Positions 3,199 through 16,200 of a stretch of 45,497 bases of DNA are shown here, one piece after another (position 1 is the first letter of the stretch; each line of letters opens with the position of its first letter). Position numbers and translations under genes: made by a program. Below the pieces are notes generated by a model. That model did no database searches and was not told the DNA's origin. It worked only from the letters and a program-made list of their open reading frames with translations. Source of the stretch: Anaerolineae bacterium (GTDB lineage Bacteria > Chloroflexota > Anaerolineae > B4-G1 > SLSP01); NCBI GenBank assembly GCA_026991395.1, contig JALXBP010000111.1, positions 1 to 45,497 on the forward strand, written 5' to 3'.

Positions 3199-4116
3199 CT
3201 ATTCCCTCCGATAGGGTTTGAGCAGCGCGGCGGGGTAGGCCGCGTTGCGTCCGGCGATGACCAGCGCCGCGATCGTCACGAGGTATGGCAGGGCGAGGAA
3301 GGTCTCGTAAGGGATGGGGAGTTGCAGCCCCATCGCCTGCAGGCGAAGCTGGAGCGCGAAGGTGCCGCCGAAGATCAGCGAGCCGAGCGTAACCTTGAAG
3401 GGGTCCCAGTTCCCGAAGATGACCAGCGCAATGGCCACCCAGCCGCGTCCGGAGACGATGCCGTGGGTAAAGGCCCCCAGTTGGGCCAGCGAGAGGAAGG
3501 CCCCGCCCGCCGCCATCAGCCCCCCGGCGATGACCAGCGCCAGGTAGCGGATGCGGTACACATCCACCCCGGCGGCATCCACCGCCTCCGGATTCTCGCC
3601 CACGGCGCGAACCTTCAGCCCGAAGTCGGTATGGTAGAGCAGCCACCACGCCAGCGGGACGATGACCAGGAAGGTGATGTAGGTCAGCAGGTACTGTTCG
3701 CCCAACGTTTCCAGGATGGGGATACCTCGGAAGGGGGAGAGGAGCGGGAACGGCTCGATGGAGGGCGGCGTAGAACGTCCGCCGTATTTCAGCCGAAAGG
3801 CGAAGAGCGCCAGCCCGCTCAGGAGCAGCGTCAGCCCAAGGCCGGAGACGTGCTGATTGACGCCCAGGGTCACGGAAAAGAGGGCCATCAGCAGCCCGGC
3901 GATGATGCCGCTGAGGACGGCGACGGCCAGGCCGATCCACAGCGAACCGGTCAGGTCGGCGACGTAGAAGCCGACGAAGGCCCCGAAGAACATCGTGCCC
4001 TCGATGCCGAGATTGAGCACCCCCGCCCGCTCGGCGTAGGTCTCTCCGATGGCCGCGAGGAGGATCGAGGTGGCGACGCGCAGCGTCGCGGTGAGCAAGC
4101 TGACGATGAACTCCAT
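3199..4116 (-). CDS. BMP/nucleoside-type ABC importer permease 2 (YufQ/NupQ-like)
   Basis: 305 residues of mostly hydrophobic helices. The N-terminal segment GETYAERAGVLNLGIEGTM (about residues 24-42) is the hallmark of the BPD_transp_2 permeases that work with BMP lipoproteins, and NQHVSGLGLTLLLSGLA and FGLKVRAVGENPEAVDAAGVDV (about 165-186, the ATPase-coupling loop) also fit. The family forms the inner-membrane channel of nucleoside or simple-sugar importers. It is the last gene of the four-gene operon, beginning one base after permease 1 ends, so the two subunits are made in step. The neighbouring amidohydrolase favours a nucleobase or nucleoside substrate, but the sequence alone does not settle the ligand. 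Confidence 0.9.
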   Translation of the reverse strand: MEFIVSLLTATLRVATSILLAAIGETYAERAGVLNLGIEGTMFFGAFVGFYVADLTGSLWIGLAVAVLSGIIAGLLMALFSVTLGVNQHVSGLGLTLLLSGLALFAFRLKYGGRSTPPSIEPFPLLSPFRGIPILETLGEQYLLTYITFLVIVPLAWWLLYHTDFGLKVRAVGENPEAVDAAGVDVYRIRYLALVIAGGLMAAGGAFLSLAQLGAFTHGIVSGRGWVAIALVIFGNWDPFKVTLGSLIFGGTFALQLRLQAMGLQLPIPYETFLALPYLVTIAALVIAGRNAAYPAALLKPYRRE

Positions 4117-4117
4117 A

Positions 4118-5182
4118 TCAGCGCCTCCCTATTCGGATGCGGTAGTGCTGAAGCAGCAGGACGGCCAGCGTCACCAACAGCATCGTGGCCTGCGTAACCT
4201 CTCCCAGATAGACGGGGACGCCCAGGACGCGGCTCACCGTCTGCGCACCGGTATCGATGAGGCCGAAGAAGAGCGCGGCAGCCCCCACCCCCCAGGCATT
4301 CAGGCCGCCCAAGGTGGCGATGATGATGCCGGTGTAGCCGTAACCGGCGGAAAGCGCATCGATGAGGTGGTACTGGATACCGGCCACCTCGCAGACGCCC
4401 GCGATCCCCGCAATGCCGCCGCTGATGAGCGCGGCGGCGAACATCGTGCGCTCGACGGGGATACCGGCGAAGCGTGCCGCCGACTTCCCCAGGCCCACGG
4501 CTCGGAGCTTCAGGCCGAAGGCGGTATGATTGAGCACGTACCAGAGCACGATCAAGGTGAGGACGGCGATGAGGAAGCCGAGATTCAGCCGCGAGCGGGC
4601 CGCCAGCTTGGGCAGATGGGCGGAGGCGGCGATCTCCGGCGATTGCGGCCACCCCGACTCCGGATCACGCCAGGGGCCGTTGAGCAGTGCGCTGACGATG
4701 TAGGCCATCACCGAGTTGAGCAGCAGCGTCGTGACGACCTCATCCACGGCCCAGCGCACTTTCAACCAGGCCGGGAGCCACGCCCAGGCCATCCCCGCCA
4801 GGAAGCCGCTCACCAGGAGCACGAGGATGGCCAGCGGGACGGGCAGACCGCCGACGAGCAGCCCGACGCCCGCCGCCGCGATCGCGCCCGCGTAGAGTTG
4901 CCCCTCCGCGCCGATGTTGTAGTAGCCGCCGGAGAAGGCGAACGTTACGGATGCGCCGGTGAGGATGAGCGGCGTGGCGGAAACGAGCACCTCGAAGAGG
5001 CTGAAGCGGCTGGAAAGGGGCGCGATGAGGAAGTAGTAGTAGGCCCGCAAAGGATTGGCGTGGCCCCAGAGAATGAGTCCTGAGGTCAACAGGAAGGTGC
5101 CGCCCAAGGCCAGCAGAGGGATGAGGAGACGGGTGCCGAGGGGCGGCGTTTCACGCTTTTCCACGGTAATCCAGCGGCTCAC
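4118..5182 (-). CDS. BMP/nucleoside-type ABC importer permease 1 (YufP/NupP-like)
   Basis: 354 residues with about eight to ten predicted membrane helices. The first is LLIPLLALGGTFLLTSGLIL, followed by LVSATPLILTGASVTFAFSGGYYNIGAEGQLYAGA-type sequence (about residues 65-100), which is characteristic of the first permease of this importer class. The coupling-loop-like segment FGLKLRAVGLGKSAARFAGI lies at about residues 220-240. The ATG at 5182 overlaps the TGA of the ATPase gene by four bases (ATGA), a sign of translational coupling. With permease 2 it should form the heterodimeric membrane channel. Confidence 0.9.
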   Translation of the reverse strand: MSRWITVEKRETPPLGTRLLIPLLALGGTFLLTSGLILWGHANPLRAYYYFLIAPLSSRFSLFEVLVSATPLILTGASVTFAFSGGYYNIGAEGQLYAGAIAAAGVGLLVGGLPVPLAILVLLVSGFLAGMAWAWLPAWLKVRWAVDEVVTTLLLNSVMAYIVSALLNGPWRDPESGWPQSPEIAASAHLPKLAARSRLNLGFLIAVLTLIVLWYVLNHTAFGLKLRAVGLGKSAARFAGIPVERTMFAAALISGGIAGIAGVCEVAGIQYHLIDALSAGYGYTGIIIATLGGLNAWGVGAAALFFGLIDTGAQTVSRVLGVPVYLGEVTQATMLLVTLAVLLLQHYRIRIGRR

Positions 5183-6681
5183 GGCAACACCTCCTCGCGC
5201 GCGGCACCGGCCATCATCAGGCCGAGCCGCTCCACGTCGGCCTCCTGAGCCGGCAGGATGCCCACGATCTCCCCTTCGTAGATGACCGCGATGCGGTCGG
5301 AAAGGGCGAGGATTTCGTCCAAATCCTCGGAGATGAGCAGGACCCCCGCCCCCCGTTCCCGCTGGGCGAGAAGCTGGGAGCGCACGTAGTCGGTCGCCCC
5401 GATATCCAGGCCACGGGTGGGCTGCGGCGCGATCACCACCTTGGGTTTGCGCGAAAGGACCCGCGCCAGCAGCAGCTTCTGCATATTGCCGCCGGAAAGC
5501 GTCTTGGCGCGATCGGTCGGCCTGGCCTTGATCTGGAACTGCTCGATGAGACGGCGGGCGTGGGCGATGATGGCCTGGCGGTCGAGGCGGCCCTTTTTGA
5601 CGAAGCGCGGCAGCGTCTCCAACGCCATATTGTCCGCCACGGAAAGCTCGCCCACGATGCCCTCGTGCCGATCCTCCGGGATGCGACCAACACCGGCGGC
5701 GTTGAGTTCGGCGGGCGAGGCCCCGGTCATGTCGCGGCCTTCGACCAGGAGACGCCCCTCCGTCGGGCGGCGCAGACCGCTGAGCACCTCCGCCAGTTCG
5801 TGCTGGCCGTTGCCCCCCACCCCGGCGATGCCGAGGATTTCGCCGCTGTGAATCGTCAGGGAGACCCGCTTCAGCGCGGGCAGGCCGCGGTCATCCACCG
5901 CGCTGATCCCCTCCATCCGCAGGAGCGGCTCGCCGCGACGGGCGCTCGTCTCGCGGCGCACGCCGAAGCTCTCGCGCCCGACCATCATCCGTGCCAGCGC
6001 CTCCTCGTTCGTCGAGGCCGTGCGCACGGTCGCGATGGCCTTGCCGTCGCGCAGGACGGTTACGCGGTCGGTGATCGCCATCACCTCGGCCAGCTTGTGG
6101 GTGATGAAGATGACCGAAAGCCCCTCGTGCTGAAGCCGCCGAAGCGTGGCGAAGAGCGCTTCGACCTCCTGGGGCGTGAGGACGGCGGTCGGCTCATCCA
6201 GGATGAGGACGCGGGCGTGGCGGTAGAGAGCCTTGAGGATCTCCACCCGCTGGCGCTGCCCGACCGAGAGGTGGCCGACCTGCACCGCGGGGTCGATCTC
6301 GAGGCCGAAGCGACGGGCGGCCTCGGCGACCTCCTCCGCAATGCGTTGGCGGTCGAGGCGGAAGCCCTCGTTGAAGCCCAGGACGACGTTTTCCGCCACC
6401 GTCAGCGTGGGGACGAGGGCGAAGTGCTGCGTGACCATGCCGATCCCCAAGGCGATGGCGTCCTTGGGCGCGTGGATGGTAACCGGTCGGCCCTCGACGC
6501 GGATCTCCCCCTCGTCAGGACGGTAGAGGCCGTAGAGGATGCGCATCAGCGTCGTCTTGCCGGCACCGTTTTCCCCCAGCAGCGCGTGGATCTCCCCCCT
6601 TTCCAGGTCGAAATCCACGTGGTCGTTGGCGACGAGTGAAGCGAAGCGCTTGGTGATGCCGCGCATCTCGATGATTTTCAT
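5179..6681 (-). CDS. BMP/nucleoside-type ABC importer ATP-binding protein (double ABC, YufO/NupO-like)
   Basis: 500 residues with two ABC domains in one chain, as expected for this importer family. The first domain has Walker A GENGAGKTT (about residues 35-43), signature LSVGQRQRVEI (about 139-149) and Walker B LILDEPTAVL (about 159-168). The second has a degenerate Walker A (GVGGNGQHE, about 285-293), signature LSGGNMQKLLLARVL (about 395-409) and a Walker B written VVIAPQPTRGLD. The APQPTRGLD form, with Q where the catalytic Glu normally sits, is typical for the family, so one site is likely catalytically weak. The gene follows the binding-protein gene after 96 bases holding a strong hairpin, and overlaps permease 1 by four bases. 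Confidence 0.92.
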   Translation of the reverse strand: MKIIEMRGITKRFASLVANDHVDFDLERGEIHALLGENGAGKTTLMRILYGLYRPDEGEIRVEGRPVTIHAPKDAIALGIGMVTQHFALVPTLTVAENVVLGFNEGFRLDRQRIAEEVAEAARRFGLEIDPAVQVGHLSVGQRQRVEILKALYRHARVLILDEPTAVLTPQEVEALFATLRRLQHEGLSVIFITHKLAEVMAITDRVTVLRDGKAIATVRTASTNEEALARMMVGRESFGVRRETSARRGEPLLRMEGISAVDDRGLPALKRVSLTIHSGEILGIAGVGGNGQHELAEVLSGLRRPTEGRLLVEGRDMTGASPAELNAAGVGRIPEDRHEGIVGELSVADNMALETLPRFVKKGRLDRQAIIAHARRLIEQFQIKARPTDRAKTLSGGNMQKLLLARVLSRKPKVVIAPQPTRGLDIGATDYVRSQLLAQRERGAGVLLISEDLDEILALSDRIAVIYEGEIVGILPAQEADVERLGLMMAGAAREEVLP

Positions 6682-6777: not shown

Positions 6778-7782
6778 TCAGTCGCTGACGGGAGGAGCTT
6801 CGTCAACGTCCACGCGGAAGGTGCCGTTCTTGATCTCCTGCTCGCGCTGCTGAACCAGTTCGAGGATATCCGCTGGGATCTTCGACTCCATCCCGTGGAA
6901 GGGGGCGAGACTGGCCCCGCCCTTCGCCATCATACTGAAATCCTTGAGGTCTTGCGCCGTGTAAGCCCCCGCCTGGATCTGCTTGATGATGTACTCGACG
7001 GTGGGGGTCATATTCCAGACCGGGCCGGTGAGGACGTGGTCGGGGCCAAGCTCGTACTGGTCGCTCATGTTGCCGAAGGCCAGCACGTCGCGCTCGACCG
7101 CCGCCTCGATGACGCCGAAGCGCTCGGCGAAGAGGACATCCGCGCCGGAATCGATCTGCGCCAGCGCCGCCTCCTTGGCCGCCGCCGGGTCGAACCAGCT
7201 ATTGATGAAGGTTACCAGCACCTTCGCATCCGGGTTGACCTCTTTGACGCCCTGGATGAAGGCGTTGACGATGCGGTTGACCTCCGGCACGGGGTAACCG
7301 CCCACCACGCCGATGACGTTGGACTTCGTGACGCCGCCCGCGATGAGGCCGCAGAGGTAGGCCGGTTCGTGGATCCAGTTGTCGAAGACGGAGAAGTTGG
7401 GATCGACCGGCCCGAGGCCGGAGCCGAAGACGAAGGCGATCTCCGGATAGTCCGCCGCCACGCGCCGCACCGCCTCCTCGTTGCCGAAGGCATCGCCGAA
7501 GATGGCATCGGGCTTCTGCTGCTCGGCCACCTCGCGCAGGACGCGCTCCATATCGCCGGAGTAGCCGACGTCGTCGGTCCACTCGTAGCGAATCTTGCCC
7601 TCATCGGCGGCCTTCTGCAGCGCGGCGTGGATGACGCCGTCCCACGGCTCCTCGATGGGCGTGGCATAGACGGCATAGATGAAGGGGACTTCGCTCTTGG
7701 CCTCCTCACCGCCGCCGGAACAGGCAGTCAGGCCGATAATGACGAGCACCATCACGATTGCGGCTGCACGTTTCCAGATCAT
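6778..7782 (-). CDS. BMP-family substrate-binding lipoprotein
   Basis: 334 residues from the ATG at 7782, chosen because AAAGGAGAG lies just upstream and the protein then opens with a lipoprotein signal: MIWKRAAAIVMVLVIIGLTAC, lipobox LTAC with Cys at residue 21. The mature part is of the BMP (basic membrane protein, PnrA-like) class. It has PDAIFGDAFGNEEAVRRVAADYPEIAF, then VFDNWIHEPAYLCGLIAGGVTKSN-type sequence (about residues 135-160), which is the conserved core, and NVIGVVGGYPVPEVNR. These proteins bind purine nucleosides or related compounds outside the membrane and pass them to the permeases. First gene of the operon, with a consensus promoter at 8011-8039. An upstream in-frame ATG at 7872 exists but would bury the signal peptide. 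Confidence 0.92.
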   Translation of the reverse strand: MIWKRAAAIVMVLVIIGLTACSGGGEEAKSEVPFIYAVYATPIEEPWDGVIHAALQKAADEGKIRYEWTDDVGYSGDMERVLREVAEQQKPDAIFGDAFGNEEAVRRVAADYPEIAFVFGSGLGPVDPNFSVFDNWIHEPAYLCGLIAGGVTKSNVIGVVGGYPVPEVNRIVNAFIQGVKEVNPDAKVLVTFINSWFDPAAAKEAALAQIDSGADVLFAERFGVIEAAVERDVLAFGNMSDQYELGPDHVLTGPVWNMTPTVEYIIKQIQAGAYTAQDLKDFSMMAKGGASLAPFHGMESKIPADILELVQQREQEIKNGTFRVDVDEAPPVSD

Positions 7783-8010
7783 AGCTCTCTCCTTTCTCGT
7801 GCTCAAAGATGAACGCAAAGACACACGGAACAACGACAGACACCGCTCGAACCTTCTCGACGCCGACATCACCTCCTATCGTGCAAAGTTTGGGGCTGCG
7901 CTTCGCGCCCCTGCGTGCCGTTTTCATATCTTCCGTGCCCGATGCGCACCCGACAGTGCACGGACAAACGGGGAATTTTAAGCGAGAGCCGGAAGAGCAT
8001 AGGCATGCTA
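7783..8010 (-). other. Structured 5' leader of the importer operon
   Basis: The transcript expected from the promoter at 8011-8039 has a leader of about 220 bases. It contains a compact hairpin, GGGGC (7892-7896) with GCCCC (7907-7911) and an inner GCG/CGC around CTT. A second, looser stem is CCGTGC (7933-7938) with GCACGG (7958-7963). I see no match to the purine riboswitch core. No gene is supported in this stretch. Confidence 0.4.
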
Positions 8011-8089: not shown

Positions 8090-8124
8090 CATCACGCATC
8101 ATATCCACAGAAAGGAGCATTGCC

Positions 8125-9327
8125 ATGGCTTACGATCTGCTTATCCGTCATGCCCGCACGCGCACGCACCAGGGAGAGGTGGACATTGCCATCGAGAGCG
8201 GTCGTATCGCGAAGATCGCGCCCGCCGTCGCCGGAGAAGCGGCGCAGATCATCGACGCGGACGGCTCGCTGGTGACCCCCTCCTTCGTCAACGGCCATCT
8301 CCACCTGTGCAAAGTGTACACCCTGGCGATGATGGACGACGAGGCGCTCAACGCCTACGTCGCCGGAGGGATGGGTGGCGCGATGACGGCCATCGAATTG
8401 GCGGCGCGCGTCAAGGCCAAATACGATGAGCGCTGGATCATCGAGAACGTCCGCCGCGCGCTCGATCTGGCGCTCAAGTTCGGCAACACCCACATCCGCG
8501 CCTTCGCCGACACCGACACCAAGGCGCGCCTGGAGGGCGTCAAGGCGTTGCTGCGGGCGCGAGAGGAGTACGCCGGCAAGGTGGAGGTGCAGGTCGTCGC
8601 CTTCCCCCAGGACGGCGTCGTGCGCGACCCCGGAGCCGAGGAGTACGTCGAAGAGGCACTCAAGATGGGGGCCGATGTCGTCGGCGGCATCCCCTGGATC
8701 GAGTACACCGACGCCGACGCGCAGGAACACATCGACCGCATGTTCGCGCTGGCGAAGAAGTACGACAAGGATATCTCGATGCTCATCGACGATGCCGGTG
8801 ATCCGGGGCTGCGCACCCTGGAGATGCTGGCCGTCACGACCATCCGCGAGGGATGGCAGGGGCGTGTTACGGCGCAGCACGCCCGCGCGATGGCGCTCTA
8901 CCCGGAGCCGTACTACCGCAAGGTGGAAGCGCTGCTGAAGCAGGCGGGCATCGGCATCGTCAGCGATCCGCAGACGGGGCCGCTCTACGCCCGCGTGCGC
9001 GACCTCTACGCGGCAGGCATCCCCGTCGCCCTGGGGCAGGACGACATCGCCGACGCCTACTACCCCTTCGGGCGCAACAACATGCTGGAAGTCGCCTTCC
9101 TCGCCGCCCACCTGATGTGGATGACCAAGCGCGAGGAGATGGAGATCCTCTACGACCTCATCACCACGCAGGCCGCCCGTGTCCTCGGCATCGAGGACTA
9201 CGGCCTGGAGGAGGGCAAGCGGGCCGATCTCGTCGTCCTCAACGCCGGGAGCGTCTGGGAAGCGATCTGGAACCACGAGGCCCCGCGTTTCGTCATCAAG
9301 GACGGCAAAGACGTAACCCTGCGATAG
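8125..9327 (+). CDS. Cytosine deaminase-like amidohydrolase
   Basis: 400 residues, about the length of CodA. The N-terminus has the amidohydrolase small beta domain and then the metal motif GHLHL (about residues 56-60). Later come VTAQHARAMALY (third metal His, about residue 252) and VALGQDDIADAYYPFG (catalytic Asp, about 300), then NNMLEVAFLAAHLM, all in the order and spacing of CodA. Known members hydrolyse cytosine, isoguanine or triazine-like rings with a metal ion. One deviation stands out: where CodA has HCDE, this protein reads LIDD (about residues 218-221, in YDKDISMLIDDAGD), so the conserved His and catalytic Glu are replaced. The substrate may thus differ. Ribosome site AAAGGAG. It is divergent from the nucleoside-type importer, suggesting shared physiology. 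It ends in a clear terminator. Confidence 0.83.
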   Translation: MAYDLLIRHARTRTHQGEVDIAIESGRIAKIAPAVAGEAAQIIDADGSLVTPSFVNGHLHLCKVYTLAMMDDEALNAYVAGGMGGAMTAIELAARVKAKYDERWIIENVRRALDLALKFGNTHIRAFADTDTKARLEGVKALLRAREEYAGKVEVQVVAFPQDGVVRDPGAEEYVEEALKMGADVVGGIPWIEYTDADAQEHIDRMFALAKKYDKDISMLIDDAGDPGLRTLEMLAVTTIREGWQGRVTAQHARAMALYPEPYYRKVEALLKQAGIGIVSDPQTGPLYARVRDLYAAGIPVALGQDDIADAYYPFGRNNMLEVAFLAAHLMWMTKREEMEILYDLITTQAARVLGIEDYGLEEGKRADLVVLNAGSVWEAIWNHEAPRFVIKDGKDVTLR

Positions 9328-9375: not shown

Positions 9376-12300
9376 TCAGGCGGCGGGGATGAAGAGGGCG
9401 GAGAGGGCGGCGGCCTGCTCCAGCACCAACTGCGTGGCACGCTCTTGCTTGTCGGGGGGATAACCGTACTTGCGCAGGAGGCGCTTGACCAACGCCCGCA
9501 GGCGAGCACGCACGTTCTCCCGCTGCTCCCAATCCACGGTGGCGTTCTCGCGCACGATGCGCACCAGTTCCTGGGCAATCTGACGCAGCGTTGCGTCGCC
9601 CAGCACTTGGCGGGCGCTTTCGTTATCGGCCAGCGCGTCGTAGAAGGCCAGCTCCTCCTCGCTCAGGCCCAGGGCTTCACCGCGACGGTCGGCCTCACGC
9701 ATCTCGCGGGCCAGGGCGATGAGTTCCTCGATGACCTGGGCCGCCTCCACGGCGCGGTTTTGGTAGCGCAGGACGGCCTGTTCCAGCAACTCCGAGAAAC
9801 GGCGGGCCTGGACGAGGTTCCTCTGCCGCCGTGTGCGGATTTCACCTGCCAACAGCTTGCGCAGCAGTTCAACGGCCAGGTTCTTGTGGGGCATGCCGCG
9901 CACCTCGGCCAGGAAATCCTCGGAGAGGATGGAGAGATCGGGCTTGTCCAGCCCGGCAGCGGCGAAGATACCCACGACCCCTTCGGGGGCGACGGCACGG
10001 GCGACGATCTCCCGGATGGCGTGATCCAGTTCCTCGTCGGTACGGACGCTTTCCTCCCCAGGGGTGCGTTTGACCAGGGCCGAACGGACGGCCTGGAAGA
10101 AGGCCACGTCATCCTGGATGCGCAGGGCCTCTTCGTGCGGGACGGCCAGGGCGAAGGCTTTGGAAAGATCGCGCACGGCCTGGACGAAACGCTCCTTGCC
10201 CCGAGGCTGGGCCAAGATGTGATCCTGGGCCGGGGGCAGGAGACGCAAGCGGGTTTCGGGATCGTCGCCGGACCAGGCCGAGCGGTCGAAGCCGTGGAAG
10301 AAGTCACAACATATCTCGTATTTTTCCAGCATCACGGTTACGGCTTCCTCCTGGTCGATCGCGGTGCGCCCGGTGCCGCCGCTGCGCGTGTAGGTCTCCA
10401 AAGCCCGCTTCAGATCGTGGGCCAGGCCGATGTAGTCCACGACCAGGCCGCCGGGCTTGTCGCGGAAGACACGGTTGACCCGCGCGATAGCCTGCATCAG
10501 CGTATGGCCGCGCATCGGCTTGTCGAGGTAGAGTGTGTGCAGCGGCGGGCAATCGAAGCCGGTCAACCACATATCCCGCACGATGACGATCTTCAGCGGA
10601 TCGTCGGGATCGCGGAAGCGGCGGGCGATGGCCTCGCGGCGGGCCTTGTTGCGGATGTGAGGCTGCCAGGCGACGGGATCGGAGGCCGAGCCGGTCATCA
10701 CGACCTTGATCACACCTTCGTTGTCGTCCTCGCCGTGCCATTGAGGACGCAGACGCACGATCTCGTCGTACATCTCCACCGCGATGCGGCGGCTCATCGT
10801 GACGATCATCGCCTTGCCGTCCAGAGCCTCCAGCCGCTTCTCGAAATGCTGCACGATGTCCTCGGCAACCATGCGCAGCCTCGGCGGGGCACCGACGATG
10901 GCCTCCAGTTGCGCCCACTTGCTCTTCAGGCGCTCCTTGCGCTCGACTTCCTCCCGTTCGGTAACTTCTTCGAAGGCCGCGTCAATCCGGGGCTTGATGC
11001 TTTCGGGGAGGCGCAGTTTGGCCAGACGGCTTTCGTAGTAGATGGGCACCGTCGCGCCATCCTCCACGGCGCGCTGGATGTCGTAGATGGAGATGTAATC
11101 GCCGAAGACCTGACGGGTGTTGCGATCTTCCAGTTCCAAAGGGGTGCCGGTGAAGGCGATGAAGGAGGCGCGGGGCAGGGCATCCCGCAGGTGGCGGGCG
11201 AAGCCCTTCACGAAACCGTATTGGCTGCGGTGGGCCTCGTCGGCGATGACCACGATGTTGCGCCGTTGGGAGAGCACGGGGTAACGTCCCCCCAGAGTTT
11301 CGGGGAAGAATTTCTGGATAGTGGTGAAGATCACGCCCCCGGCCTGGCGCTCGGCCAGTAACCGTTGCAGGTGCTCGCGGCTCTCGGCCTGGATGGGTTG
11401 CTGGCGCAGCAGGTCGTGTCCACGGGAGAAGACGCCGAAGAGCTGATCGTCCAGGTCATTGCGGTCGGTGAGCACCACCAAGGTGGGGTTCTGCATCGCC
11501 GGTTCGCGGGCCATACGGGCGGCGTAGAAGAGCATCGTCAAGCTCTTGCCGGAACCTTGGGTATGCCATACGACGCCAATGCGCCCGTCTCCCGGTGCGC
11601 CGCCGGGCTTGCGTCCCGCCTCGTAACGGCCGGAGGTTTCGCGGAGGCCGGATGACGGTTCGAGCATGCGGGCTGCCCGTAGCGTCTCCTGAACGGCCAC
11701 CCGCACGGCGTGGAATTGATGATAACCGGCCACCTTCTTGCTCAGATGACCGCCATCGTCTTCGAAGAGGACGAAATCCCGCAGCAGTTCCAGGAGCCGC
11801 GCCGGAGCCATGGCCCCTTTGAGCAGCACCTCCAATTGGGGCCGTCCGTCGTCTTCCACCCCCTCACCTGAAATGGTGCGCCACGGCTTGAACCATTCCC
11901 GCCCGGCGGTCAGCGTGCCCATGCGGGCCTCCAGCCCATCGGAGATGATCAGCAGTTCGTTGAGGGCGAAGAGGGTGGGAAGCTCGGCCTTGTAGGTCTG
12001 GAATTGCCGGTAAGCGCTCCAGAGGGTGGCCTTTTCGTCCACGGGGTTCTTCATCTCGATGAGTACCAGCGGCAATCCGTTGACGAAGAGCACGATGTCG
12101 GGCCGTCGCCGATGCCGGTCTTCGACCACGGTGAATTGATTGATGGCCAGGAAGTCGTTGGCTTCCGGATGCTCGAAATCCACACTCCGGACTCGTACCC
12201 CCCGGATGCTGCCGTCGGGACGCCGTACCTCCACGGGGATACCCTCCACCAGCATGCGGTGGAAGGCGCGGTTGCGGGCTTCCGGCGTTGCCCCTTCGGG

Positions 12301-12528
12301 GCGGGTGAGGCGACGGGCGGCCTCCTCCAGTGCCGGATAGGGCAGGTCGGGGTTGAGCGCGGCCAGCGCGTCCATCAGCCGGTAGTGCAGCACCACCTGG
12401 CGGTAGTCGTCCCGCTCGGCCATTGGCTCGCCGGGGGCGACCTCAGGACCGTAGGCGGTCTGCCAGCCGGTGGATTCCAGCCAGGCCAGGGCCACGGTTT
12501 CGGCTTCAGCTTCGGTCAAGCGAGTCAT
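9376..12528 (-). CDS. hsdR: Type I restriction enzyme, R subunit (HsdR)
   Basis: 1050 residues, normal for HsdR. The N-terminal nuclease domain shows the PD-ExK pattern as [22 protein letters not shown]-like sequence (Asp about residue 144, EMK about 158-160). The motor domain follows with Walker [10 protein letters not shown] (about 305-313), DEAH box [13 protein letters not shown] (about 430-442), FTGTPL, and helicase motif [18 protein letters not shown] (about 680-695). A C-terminal helical region for complex assembly ends the protein. HsdR pumps DNA past the HsdM2S complex using ATP and cuts unmethylated DNA. It is separated from hsdM and hsdS by the RAYT gene, leaving only 30 bases between the RAYT stop and the hsdR start. 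The frame looks intact and functional. Confidence 0.95.
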
Positions 12529-12558
12529 AGCGGGTTCCTCCGTAGATGGCGGGGCGGA

Positions 12559-13323
12559 CTACAACAGACGTTGCAGATCACCGGCCCAGGGGTCTGGGGC
12601 GATGGCGTGGGCATTGTAGCGATCCAGTTGCCAGCGTGAAGGGTTGGCCGCGATATAGCGCCGGATGGCGTGCAGGGCGCGTTCGTTGCGGATGATGTGT
12701 TCCCAATAATTGCGTTGCCAGACGGGCATGCCGGGGGTGTCCCGCAGGGCGTTGATGCGTTTGGTGGCGATGGATTTGAAACCCGCGATGAATGCCCCCA
12801 ACGAACGCGGCGCCGGGCCGCGTGGTGGTGGTGGTAGGGGCGACCGGCCGGGGGAGATCGATGTAGGGGCGACCGGTGTAGGGGCGACCGATGTAGGGGC
12901 GACCGGTGTAGGGGCGACCGGTGTAGGGGCGACCGGTGTAGGGGCGACCGGTGTAGGGGCGACCGGTGTAGGGGCGACCGGCCGGTCGCCCCTACTACGG
13001 TCCCGATCGACGGCATGGTCGTCCGTCCCCACGGGCGGATCGGCCACATCCACAATCCACACAATGCCGTGGATGTGATTGGGCATGACCACGAATTCCT
13101 CGGGGAACAATTCGATTTCGGCGCGGATCTCCGCGGAACGGAACCATTCCTCGCGCACGATCTCGCCCGGCGGATTCAACCGCATCTCCCCCTCCACCAC
13201 CTCGCCAAACAGACATTCGCGCCTGTGCGTCACGAGGGTCACGAAATAGGCCCCCGTCCGGGTGTAATCGTATCCTTTCAGGCGGATGGAGCGGCGATGA
13301 TGTTTTTGGGGATCATATCTCAT
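12559..13323 (-). CDS. REP-associated tyrosine transposase (RAYT, Y1/IS200-like) with internal VAPTP repeats
   Basis: 254 residues. The Y1 transposase fold is shown by the opening RSIRLKGYDYTRTGAYFVTL, the HUH motif PNHIHGIV (His 83 and 85) and the C-terminal helix NYWEHIIRNERALHAIRRYI (candidate nucleophile Tyr 206 or Tyr 223). RAYTs nick and rejoin single-stranded DNA at REP palindromes. Between the HUH motif and the C-terminal helix an in-frame insert (about residues 115-160) has eight VAPT units, encoded by tandem 15-bp DNA repeats and a 28-bp palindrome. Without it the protein would be close to the usual RAYT size. The ATG overlaps the hsdS stop (ATGA), so it is co-translated with the restriction operon. 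No terminal inverted repeats mark it as a mobile unit. The frame is intact; activity is unproven. Confidence 0.88.
   Translation of the reverse strand: MRYDPQKHHRRSIRLKGYDYTRTGAYFVTLVTHRRECLFGEVVEGEMRLNPPGEIVREEWFRSAEIRAEIELFPEEFVVMPNHIHGIVWIVDVADPPVGTDDHAVDRDRSRGDRPVAPTPVAPTPVAPTPVAPTPVAPTPVAPTSVAPTPVAPTSISPGRSPLPPPPRGPAPRSLGAFIAGFKSIATKRINALRDTPGMPVWQRNYWEHIIRNERALHAIRRYIAANPSRWQLDRYNAHAIAPDPWAGDLQRLL
12834..12995. repeat. 15-bp minisatellite of REP half-sites inside the RAYT gene
   Basis: Eight tandem 15-bp units (GTAGGGGCGACCGGT, with GAT replacing GGT in two) start at 12863 and repeat to 12982. The last runs into a perfect 28-bp palindrome at 12968-12995 whose half is GTAGGGGCGACCGG. 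A further half-site lies at 12834-12850. The unit length is divisible by three, so the coding frame is kept. The palindrome looks like the REP sequence that such transposases use. Confidence 0.92.
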
Positions 13324-14618
13324 AGTGCCTCCTCCAGAATCTTTTCCGCATCCGGCACGCGCACTTCGCCGGAGATGAGCTTGGGGAGGAGGGTATCGCG
13401 CAGGGCGGCGAGAGTGCGAGATTGTTCCTCAAAAGACCGAATTTTAGCATCAAAAGGATACATCTCATCTTCAAACAAGGATACCAAGTTATGCTTAGGC
13501 GCTATATTTGGTAAGTCATGAAACTGCTTCTTGTTTATAGCTCCGAATACTGTCCCCCCTGCCTCGTAACGTCTAAATAATTCACCAAGCGCACGCATCG
13601 CGTAGTAAGTGTAAGAGCGACTACCAGATTTATGTCTAACTGCTGCTACACCACGGCCAATAGCGCAGGTTTCATATGCCATATTGATATCACCAACGGG
13701 AGCACGAACGCTGACAAGAGTATCACCAGCATTTACAACACGCTTCGGCGCGGTGCAATAAACGCGATTGGTAGGATAGCGAAACCCAAAGTCACGCCGT
13801 CCTTGGAAAAAAGGTAACCCATGTCCGATTTCATTATAAGTCGAGCCCGGCGGAGATTGCCCCATCGTAATGTCAAATTCGTCCCCTACTTTAGACGCTC
13901 GCCACCCCGCCGGAATCGGCCCGAGTTCCGAATCCACAAAGCGGTCGGGGAAGAGACGCAGGGTCTCTTCGGACAGGCCGAGAGCGCCGGGATTCTCGCG
14001 ATAGTGCGCGGCGTGCTCGGCGAACTTCTCCGGGACGGGATTGCCCGCCTTGAGGGCGTTGACCACCACCGGGTCGAAGTCCACGAACCAGGACTTGAAG
14101 AGCGCCTGCGCCATTGCCTCCAGTGTCTCGTTCATGCGGCGGTTGAGTTCGATCTTGTCATCGAGCGTGCCCAGAATGCGGGCGATGGCGCGTCGCTCCT
14201 TCCGATCAGCGGGATAATGGATATGAATTCTATTTAGGTTGTGCTGATTCAGCTTGGCCTGTACAGAGCCGCTCATATAAGGGCGAATAGCAACGGTAGA
14301 AAGAGCGTAGTAAATAAATCTGGTATCCTCGTCGGTTTCGCCTCTTAGGACATGAGCATGATTATTCACCCAGAACCGGCCATTAACGAGTTGCAAGAAT
14401 GGTTTACCATCTGGCCGCTCCACTGAGCCATCCTCAGCTATCAGTAGATAAAGGCCGTCGAACAAGTAATCGTCCACATAATCCATAATGCCTGTGGCAC
14501 CATAATATGGATAAGGCCCCGGCCTCTTTTTTCGCTCTCGCCTGGAGAGAGGAATCCGGAGTGAATCGAAATTCTGGACTACATTGCCCAACTGGACCTT
14601 TCGCCACTCACCCCCCAT
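13320..14618 (-). CDS. hsdS: Type I restriction enzyme, specificity subunit (HsdS)
   Basis: 432 residues with the two-TRD layout of HsdS. TRD1 covers about residues 1-130. The first conserved helical spacer follows ([20 protein letters not shown], then [20 protein letters not shown], about 135-178). TRD2 spans about 235-380, opening after [23 protein letters not shown], and the distal spacer is [23 protein letters not shown]. Each TRD reads one half of a split target site. Both TRD-coding stretches (about 14220-14600 and 13440-13860) are visibly richer in A+T than the spacers and neighbours, a sign of TRD exchange from another genome. It overlaps hsdM by 11 bases and the RAYT gene by four. 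Confidence 0.95.
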
Positions 14619-16200
14619 AACCCAGCACCTCGAGATTCTTCCTGATCTCCGCTTCCAGCCGGCGGCTTTCCTCGAACTGCTCGTAGAGCGTGGCGGTCAG
14701 TCTGGCCATCTTCTCCTCGAAAGGCTCGTCGTCCTCCTCCCGCTCAGCCACGCCGACGTAGCGGCCCGGAGTGAGCACGTAGCCGTGTTTGCGGATCTCC
14801 TCCAGCGGAACGCGCTTGCAAAAGCCGGGGATATCCTCGTACTCACCCGCGCCGGATTCGCCGCGCCAGGCGTGGTAGATGCGGGCGATCTCCGCGATCT
14901 CCTCGTCGGTCAACTCCCGATGGGTGCGATCCATCATCCGCCCCATGCGACGGGCATCGATAAAGAGCACCTCACCCCGCCGGGAGCGCAGTGCCTCTCG
15001 CTGACCGCGCGGCGGGCGGCCGCTCTTGTCGCGGGCGAGGAACCAGAGCGCCGCCGGGATCTGCGTCGTGTAGAAGAGCTTGTCGGGCAGGGCCACGATG
15101 CAGTCCACCAGGTCGGCCTCGACGATCGCCTGACGGATCTTCCCCTCGCCCGACTGCTGCGACGAAAGGGAGCCGTTGGCCAGCACGAAGCCCGCATAAC
15201 CCGTCGGGGCCAGATGGTAGATGATGTGCTGGACCCAGGCGAAGTTGGCGTTACGCGCCGGAGGGAGGCCGAACTTCCAGCGCTTGTCGTGGAGCAACCG
15301 CTCGCGGCCCCAGTTTTTCATGTTGAAGGGCGGGTTGGCCAGGATGTAATCCACCTTGAGATCGGGAAAGCGGTCGTTGAGGAAGGTGTCGCCTTGCTCG
15401 ACCTTGGCATCGATGCCCCGGATGGCCAGATTCATCTTGCAGAGCCGCCACGTGGTGTAGTTGAGTTCCTGGCCGTAGATGCTGATCTGTGCCCGCACCC
15501 GTCCTCCGTTGCCGTTGCCTGTGGCATGGGCCTCGACGAAGCGCACGGACTGGACGAACATACCGCCCGAACCGGCACAGGGGTCATAGACGCGCCCTCG
15601 GAAAGGTTCCAGCATCTCGACCAGGAGCTTGACCACCGATGCCGGCGTGTAGAATTCGCCCCCCTTGCGGCCCTCGGCGCTGGCAAACTGCCCCAGGAAG
15701 TACTCGTACACCCGTCCGAGCACATCCTGGGCCTTGGCCTCCCCGCCGCCCACACGGATATTGCTGATCAGGTCGATGAGCTGGCCCAAACGATGCTGAT
15801 CCAGCGAGGGGCGAGCGTAATCCTTGGGCAGCACGCCCCGCAGCGAGGGATTGTCCCGCTCCACCGCCTCCATCGCCTCATTCACCAGGCCGCCGATCCC
15901 CGGCTGGCGAGCGTTCTGCTGGAGGCGTTCCCAGCGGGCCTCAGGAGGTACCCAGAAGATATCGTGCCCTCGATACTCGTCGGGGTCTTCGGGGTCGGCG
16001 AAAGGCTCATGCTGCAACTGCGCATAACGTTCCTCGAAAGCATCCGAGATGTACTTGAGGAAGATCAGCCCCAGGACGACGTGCTTGTAATCGGCGGCAT
16101 CCATTGAGCCACGTAACGTGTTGGCAAGCTCCCAGAGATGCGCTTCATACCCCAAGGTGCTGCCGTTCTTGGGCTTTCCTTTCGAACGTCGGCGTCCCAT
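14608..16200 (-). CDS. hsdM: Type I restriction enzyme, methyltransferase subunit (HsdM)
   Basis: 530 residues, a normal size. The N-terminal helical domain contains [20 protein letters not shown] (about residues 36-55). The AdoMet-binding motif appears as [12 protein letters not shown] (about 200-211) and the catalytic N6-adenine motif as [10 protein letters not shown] (about 287-296). [15 protein letters not shown] precedes motif I, as in other HsdM. With HsdS it methylates adenine in the split recognition site; with HsdR it forms the restriction complex. First gene of the operon, with ribosome site GGAGGACATTTT before the ATG and a strong promoter at 16230-16258. Complete and probably functional. 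Confidence 0.96.

Follow-up and report, generated by a model that had tools for sequence, protein, structure and literature searches.

A CodA/AtzC-type amidohydrolase subfamily with leucine at the beta5 metal position, encoded near nucleoside-type importers and molybdenum hydroxylases

In cytosine deaminase (CodA), His214 is a metal ligand, and Glu217 deprotonates the water and protonates N3 of cytosine (PMC11796326). The metal ligands of AtzC, an enzyme of herbicide degradation, are His60, His62, His217, and Asp303; this set and the assignment to mononuclear subtype III (HxH on beta1, His on beta5, and Asp on beta8) are given in PMC4577212. Among the AtzC variants described there, His249Ala had undetectable activity, His219Ala, altered at the residue that occupies the place of CodA Glu217, was still active (kcat, 16.8 versus 26.2 per s), and the Asp303Ala enzyme was also still active (PMC4577212).

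The window analyzed here, a stretch of 45,497 nucleotides on a contig from an Anaerolineae bacterium, carries a gene for a relative of these enzymes in which the beta5 segment is changed. The gene and the codons for its predicted active-site residues, the latter placed by alignment, were as follows:

8111..8117, + strand, Shine-Dalgarno-like aaaggag, 7 bases 5' of the ATG (direct reading)
8125..9327, + strand, CodA/AtzC-type amidohydrolase of the L-x-D-D subfamily, 400 aa, frame intact
8296..8304, + strand, His58-Leu-His60, the HxH metal ligands of beta1, kept in 90/90 sequences
8311..8313, + strand, Lys63, at the position of AtzC Lys65, a substrate contact in AtzC
8608..8610, + strand, Gln162, at the position of CodA Gln156 and AtzC Gln160
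8782..8793, + strand, Leu220-Ile221-Asp222-Asp223, in place of CodA His214-Cys-Asp-Glu217
8878..8880, + strand, His252, the beta6 His (CodA His246, AtzC His249)
9040..9045, + strand, Asp306-Asp307, with the beta8 Asp (CodA Asp313-Asp314)

The protein contained Amidohydro_3 (154 bits) and Amidohydro_1 as its sole Pfam domains, and the nearest solved sequences were AtzC (5akq; E = 1.5e-57) and then E. coli CodA (1k6w; E = 2.9e-53). The best NCBIfam subfamily was PRK07572, named cytosine deaminase, at 290.2 bits against a cut-off of 438, which was not reached; PRK09230, at 241.7 bits, likewise fell below its cut-off of 483. An AlphaFold2 model built with 60 family members had a mean pLDDT of 90.8 and a pTM of 0.90, with a pLDDT of 77 for the block containing residues 221 to 230. 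CodA and AtzC ranked first in Foldseek (TM-score normalized to the query, 0.85 to 0.91). In VIA-align, the model matched AtzC (5akq_A) with Z = 52.6, an rmsd of 2.0, 386 aligned residues, and 32% identity and CodA (3g77) with Z = 52.1, an rmsd of 2.2, and 385 aligned residues; the next group, the imidazolonepropionases, was far below (Z = 37.6). An earlier note, made from the sequence alone, had called the product a cytosine-deaminase-like enzyme and proposed structure prediction against CodA with metal. The CodA/AtzC relationship and a CodA-like fold over the full length were borne out by sequence, Foldseek, and VIA-align, with a model made without metal.

The same note had described a change of the HCDE motif to LIDD, and this was confirmed against both reference enzymes. 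In the MAFFT alignment with E. coli CodA, IDVHCDEIDDEQ stood opposite ISMLIDDAGDPG, ungapped for dozens of residues on each side, such that the CodA segment IDVHCDEIDD corresponded to ISMLIDDAGD; phmmer placed AtzC IDYHIHDIG opposite ISMLIDDAG, also ungapped. A sequencing error or pseudogene was ruled out by the intact frame and by the motif being fixed throughout the relatives (90 of 90 family members). Both of the replacements in the note, of the His and of the catalytic Glu, were found, and its stress on the Glu was misplaced, since the lost His is a metal ligand: loss of the beta5 metal His (CodA His214, AtzC His217), judged from sequence, is a more radical change than Glu to Asp. Either Asp222 or Asp223, both invariant, could occupy the place of CodA Glu217 and AtzC His219. 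The further statement that all other CodA landmarks are kept held for GHLHL (residues 57 to 61), VTAQH (248 to 252), GQDD (304 to 307), and NNML and failed at three places: the His of CodA RTHVD is Phe127, the CodA Trp319 position is Tyr312, and approximately 10 residues preceding GPL are absent. An alternative alignment restoring a conserved HxxE elsewhere, which the note had named beforehand as counterevidence, was sought with the patterns HxxE, HxE, HxxD, HxD, and HxxxE across 90 L-x-D-D sequences. No conserved HxxE was found in these sequences, and the sole tested pattern present at one place in more than half of them was H202-x-D (69/90), which lies in helix 196-213.

The protein can thus be compared with its two relatives position by position. 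It shares with CodA the fold, 34% identity (MAFFT), and counterparts of Gln156, His246, and Asp313-Asp314, and it differs in having Leu for His214 and Asp for Glu217, a shorter loop before GPL, an insert at approximately residues 69 to 80, and, among its relatives, molybdenum hydroxylase neighbors. It resembles AtzC in fold, HxH, beta6 His, beta8 Asp, and the positions of Lys63 and Gln162, and AtzC also lacks an equivalent of CodA Glu217 (His219 in PMC4577212); however, AtzC retains the beta5 metal ligand His217, where Leu220 is found here, and it belongs to herbicide degradation rather than to a nucleobase-type operon. Of the AtzC substrate residues (Lys65, Gln160, His219, Asn304, and Trp309), Lys65 and Gln160 were matched by Lys63 and Gln162, whereas His219 lies in the segment changed to LIDD and Asn304 and Trp309 were replaced by Asp307 and Tyr312, so that the AtzC set is incomplete. 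Of the subtype III ligands, HxH and the beta8 Asp were present and the beta5 His was not (Leu in 90/90), and the CodA signature HxxE, comprising the ligand His214 and the shuttle Glu217, was absent from the protein. The L-x-D-D enzymes are therefore of the CodA/AtzC type by fold and sequence and neither CodA nor subtype III by metal ligands.

A scan of genome contigs produced 145 relatives. The best 80 of these 145 (61 to 84% identity) were examined, and together with the window protein, all 81 sequences had Leu followed by x-Asp-Asp at the motif, with x being Ile, Val, Leu, or Met. With more loci added, L-x-D-D was found in 90/90 sequences, all of which also kept HxH, Lys63, Gln162, the beta6 His, both motif Asp residues, Asp306-Asp307, and Tyr312; Lys63 and Arg254 were invariant in the family alignment. 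By record title, members belonged to Chloroflexi, Synergistota, Spirochaetes, Firmicutes, Coriobacteriales, Acidobacteria, Verrucomicrobia, Deltaproteobacteria, Riflebacteria, Auribacterota, and one archaeon, with the qualification that nearly all records are metagenome bins and single odd taxa may be misbinned. Named strains with the gene included Bellilinea caldifistulae GOMI-1 and Acetomicrobium hydrogeniformans OS1. Within the class of the window, 13 of 199 genomes contained a member (E ≤ 3.3e-192), and 9 weaker matches among the 199 were clearly separate (E = 3e-56 to 8e-96). None of the 19 CodA-like sequences examined outside the L-x-D-D family and its V-x-D-D sister (see below), CodA itself among them, had lost the beta5 His. 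In a 71-row tree of 30 L-x-D-D sequences drawn randomly from the 80 loci plus all others, the L-x-D-D sequences were monophyletic with 100/100 support. The family tree and neighborhood comparison of LIDD-type sequences proposed in the earlier note returned one fully supported clade with recurrent neighbors. Fixation of the motif across the family goes beyond what the note foresaw, as do the missing metal ligand, the more strongly altered sister clade, and the hydroxylase and transcarbamoylase neighbors. The 8125-9327 gene belongs to a distinct monophyletic CodA/AtzC-type subfamily with Leu for the beta5 His and Asp-Asp in the catalytic acid region. No description of the L-x-D-D family or its operon was found in the open-licence full-text literature of PubMed Central.

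A sister clade with V-x-D-D at the motif comprised 12 sequences, 3 from among the weaker class matches (L095, L096, and L097) and 9 others from 395 class genomes. The beta5 His was lost (Val) with Asp-Asp kept in 12/12, the beta6 His was Gln in 12/12, and the first beta1 His was Gln in 11/12, the exception (L127) retaining HLH. The clade had 100/100 support and joined L-x-D-D at 100/97 in the 71-row tree; in a 47-row tree containing AtzC, AtzC fell outside and the join held at 100/98, although long branches meet at this join and the outgroups are almost all from one class. Seven of the 12 V-x-D-D genes (L095:308-2763, L117 to L121, and L127) adjoined a CodA-like gene that still encodes the beta5 His, and in an eighth genome (G379), a second CodA-like gene lay approximately 1 kb from the V-x-D-D gene. 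This arrangement looks like a tandem pair of an active and a degenerate copy, possibly forming a mixed oligomer.

Divergent from the amidohydrolase gene in the window were the genes for an importer:

6778..7872, - strand, BMP/PnrA-type ABC substrate-binding lipoprotein (PF02608), transcribed away from the amidohydrolase gene (Pfam)
5179..6681, - strand, importer ATPase with two ABC domains (Pfam, NCBIfam)
4118..5182, - strand, importer permease A, BPD_transp_2 (Pfam, NCBIfam)
3199..4116, - strand, importer permease B, BPD_transp_2 (Pfam, NCBIfam)

The PF02608 lipoprotein, ATPase, and two BPD_transp_2 permeases are the components of a BMP/PnrA nucleoside importer, in agreement with the nucleoside-type importer of the earlier note. 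Vitamin B6 was rejected as the substrate suggested by the NCBIfam "putative B6" names (ABC_ATP_B6 and partners), all four matches being below cut-off (500.6/670, 96/400, 165.8/400, and 196/465 bits). Because this importer adjoins the gene, an imported heterocycle is a likely substrate, as the note had suggested. Elsewhere in the window, type I restriction-modification genes (hsdR, hsdS, and hsdM) occupied positions 9376-16200 on the - strand. A 254-aa ORF between hsdR and hsdS (12559-13323) had no Pfam match and resembles what we take to be a REP-associated transposase; within it, 9.9 tandem copies of a 15-base unit (12834-12981) gave a VAPTP-type protein repeat.

Neighbors were identified at the best 80 of 145 relatives by all-against-all ORF clustering and seed searches. 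A molybdenum hydroxylase large subunit was found at 49/80 loci, a BMP-type importer at 37/80, and either of these at 54/80; among the 39 loci with at least approximately 6 to 7 kb on each side, 30 had the hydroxylase or the importer. The commonest gene order, co-directional, was BMP-ATPase-PermA-PermB-XDHL-XDHS-gene. The models that came closest to the hydroxylase were those of XdhA and 4-hydroxybenzoyl-CoA reductase, with scores under the NCBIfam cut-off. The oxamate-transcarbamoylase-like AllF (FdrA) or AllG, or a PF04199 cyclase, distant kin of isatin hydrolase and kynurenine formamidase, occurred at 10/80 loci; AllFGH has been shown to act on oxalurate (PMC11326118). The Acetomicrobium locus (L025) additionally encoded AllH, a carbon-nitrogen hydrolase, a PucR regulator (also found in L027), and a class III CoA-transferase with CoA:oxalate CoA-transferase as its best match, below cut-off. 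Carbamate kinase, above cut-off, was encoded at L056.

Four loci (L066, L073, L075, and L079) carried genes for an MmdA-like carboxyltransferase and an OadB-like decarboxylase subunit 3' or 5' of the gene, in three cases within one co-directional run with the hydroxylase, gene, and importer. By sequence, this set would be a Na+-pumping malonyl/methylmalonyl-CoA-type decarboxylase, the MmdA name being below the NCBIfam cut-off. The order on a single strand at L066 was NCS2 permease-XDHM-XDHS-XDHL-gene-BMP-ATPase-PermA-PermB-MmdA-(116 aa)-biotin carrier-OadB. For the permeases of L066 and L112, the uracil permease model gave the better scores (209.5 and 226.5 bits, versus 121.2 and 141.7 bits with the xanthine permease model), with all values below cut-off. 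Pyrimidine-nucleoside phosphorylase (PyNP), purine nucleoside phosphorylase (PNP), XDHL, XDHS, and the gene were arranged in this order at L062; PNP was also found at L064, and xanthine-permease-like and 8-oxoguanine-deaminase-like genes were found at L056 and L074.

Other recurrent genes were observed in these neighborhoods and in the class. Aldehyde ferredoxin oxidoreductase-like genes lay beside a cyclase (L110:4008-5870) and beside an L-x-D-D gene (L105:10256-12031), and a double cyclase-like match in a single open frame of approximately 560 aa recurred in the class near AllG (G017, G072, G101, and others). A protein of approximately 240 aa adjoined a cyclase, AllG, or thiolase gene at six loci, and neither Pfam nor NCBIfam gave a match for the three copies scanned. 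Its positions were as follows:

L079:13244-13966, protein of approximately 240 aa
L111:6634-7359, the same protein
L112:7203-7928, the same protein
L046:878-1549, the same protein
L106:10397-11164, the same protein
L093, near 1892, the same protein

In the genome of the window, only the importer is beside the gene, and the other pathway parts are on other contigs. These included an XDHL-XDHS pair (C117; 75% and 64% identity to the neighbors' subunits), MmdA and OadB (C107), and AllF, AllG, cyclase, NCS2 permease, and a second hydroxylase (C31 and C12, with AllG split across the two contig ends). A role of the protein as partner of a canonical CodA was ruled out for this genome, which had a single CodA-like match. 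Among the 199 class genomes, AllG was present in 10/13 with the gene versus 65/186 without it (P = 0.004), a close cyclase in 10/13 versus 44/186 (P = 0.0002), and either in 13/13 versus 69/186 (Fisher, P = 5e-6); these P values ignore relatedness, and the definition of "close" (best E ≤ 1e-90) and the combined test were chosen after the match lists had been viewed.

From these neighborhoods, we infer, tentatively and at a little less than an even chance, that the protein is a ring-opening amidohydrolase acting downstream of the molybdenum hydroxylase in anaerobic base degradation, most likely converting barbiturate to ureidomalonate. The BMP-type importer would bring in a nucleobase or nucleoside, and the xanthine-dehydrogenase-family enzyme would hydroxylate the imported ring. 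The L-x-D-D enzyme would then add water to a ring carbonyl placed where CodA attacks C4, with the water activated by His252 and whatever metal stays on HxH and Asp306 and with the pyrimidine-like ring retained via Gln162, Asp306-307, and Lys63. In CodA, the Glu217 proton passes on to the leaving ammonia. If a carbonyl replaces the amine in the substrate, the same geometry would cleave a ring C-N bond, the Asp at the place of Glu217 protonating the ring nitrogen. Since enzymes of the hydroxylase family add ring carbonyls and since transcarbamoylase, amidase, CoA-transferase, and malonyl-CoA-type decarboxylase fit ureidomalonate, the favored substrate would be barbiturate, formed from uracil, or 5-methylbarbiturate, formed from thymine. 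AllF/AllG would transfer the carbamoyl group onto phosphate, after which carbamate kinase would form ATP, and the carbon skeleton would exit via malonyl- or methylmalonyl-CoA decarboxylase. Barbiturase and cyanuric acid hydrolase (AtzD) are alike only in the proposed reaction, hydrolytic opening of barbiturate; they have a separate fold (PMC4051656, PMC3758960), and no AtzD-type domain was detected in the 8125-9327 protein by Pfam.

Ring opening is favored by the kept residues of a predicted pyrimidine/triazine-binding pocket (Gln162, Asp306-307, and Lys63), and the invariant Lys63 and Arg254 would suit an anionic substrate. A pyrimidine is favored by the phosphorylase run at L062, which is headed by PyNP, and by the malonate-type endpoint at the four MmdA/OadB loci. 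Against barbiturate, the L056 and L074 genes point to purines, and the oxalate-like CoA-transferase of L025, together with the action of AllFGH on oxalurate (PMC11326118), means that the product could be an oxalurate; given the MmdA/OadB loci, an oxalurate/oxalate endpoint (AllFGH and the CoA:oxalate-like transferase) was ranked lower. None of the names given to the hydroxylase, permease, and MmdA reaches its curated NCBIfam cut-off, the PF04199 cyclase could itself be the ring opener, AllG and the cyclase are also common in class genomes without the gene, and the ring-opening reading does not account for metal binding at a site that lacks the beta5 His.

The same operons can be read for purines, with the enzyme opening the pyrimidine ring of xanthine or another oxopurine, as a xanthinase would, and AllF/AllG or the cyclase then removing the ureido group. 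The XdhA models as best hydroxylase matches (below cut-off), PucR at L025 and L027, the permease-like and deaminase-like genes at L056 and L074, and PNP at L062 and L064 point in this direction, and anaerobic routes with xanthine ring opening exist (PMC3519856, PMC12507026). The description of xanthinase as an orphan enzyme (PMC3519856, from 2012) is outdated, the gene cluster having since been identified (PMC12507026). That cluster was reported in Clostridia and Bacilli (PMC12507026), however; the malonyl/methylmalonyl-CoA-type decarboxylase at four loci has no role in the xanthinase route, and no later enzyme of the route was recognized among the annotated neighbors, a minority of all neighbors. 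A purine substrate is regarded as unlikely, although, like deamination, it is a serious competitor of the barbiturate reading. Retained deamination of a cytosine-like base (cytosine, 5-methylcytosine, isocytosine, or a hydroxylated form), with Asp replacing Glu217 and metal on HxH, Asp306, and perhaps Asp222, is in keeping with the closest characterized relatives, AtzC and CodA, both of which remove exocyclic amines, with PRK07572 as the best subfamily (290 bits), and with the tolerance of AtzC to His219Ala, at the Glu217 counterpart, and to Asp303 replacement (PMC4577212). It is nevertheless improbable: the PRK07572 cut-off of 438 was not reached, the beta5 His is kept in 19/19 other CodA-like sequences versus Leu in 90/90 here, and loss of both a ligand and the Glu is an odd route to unchanged chemistry.

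A non-catalytic binding or scaffolding protein, such as a substrate carrier for the hydroxylase, would account for the lost metal ligand, for a V-x-D-D sister without one or two more, and for the 7/12 sister genes adjoined by a CodA-like gene in which the beta5 His is preserved. It is very unlikely, as the invariance of HxH, the beta6 His, the beta8 Asp, Gln162, and both motif Asp residues in 90/90 sequences goes beyond the needs of a scaffold, and the genome of the window is without a second CodA-like gene as a possible active partner. Returning to ring opening of barbiturate, a fuller version, doubtful when taken as one whole, combines a remodeled metal site (HxH and Asp306 joined by one Asp of the pair as a new ligand, or metal-light catalysis) with a new energy-conserving anaerobic pathway, in which uracil or thymine would enter by BMP import and pass through (methyl)barbiturate to ureido(methyl)malonate, with a carbamoyl phosphate-type ATP gain and Na+-pumping (methyl)malonyl-CoA decarboxylation. 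The V-x-D-D clade would, in this whole, represent a further step towards a metal-free amidohydrolase.

A clade spread across approximately ten labeled higher taxa has fixed Leu at the beta5 metal position with the rest of the site retained. It can serve as a natural experiment, both on the minimum metal center with which an amidohydrolase can work and on the possibility that alteration of the site shifts the chemistry from deamination to ring opening. The neighborhood makes the substrate question testable with two operon proteins, the hydroxylase and the L-x-D-D enzyme, and a few pyrimidines and purines. L-x-D-D genes risk being named "cytosine deaminase" on the basis of similarity. If the pyrimidine reading is true, lineages such as Anaerolineae, Synergistota, and Spirochaetota would have an anaerobic fate for uracil or thymine that yields ATP and a Na+ gradient.
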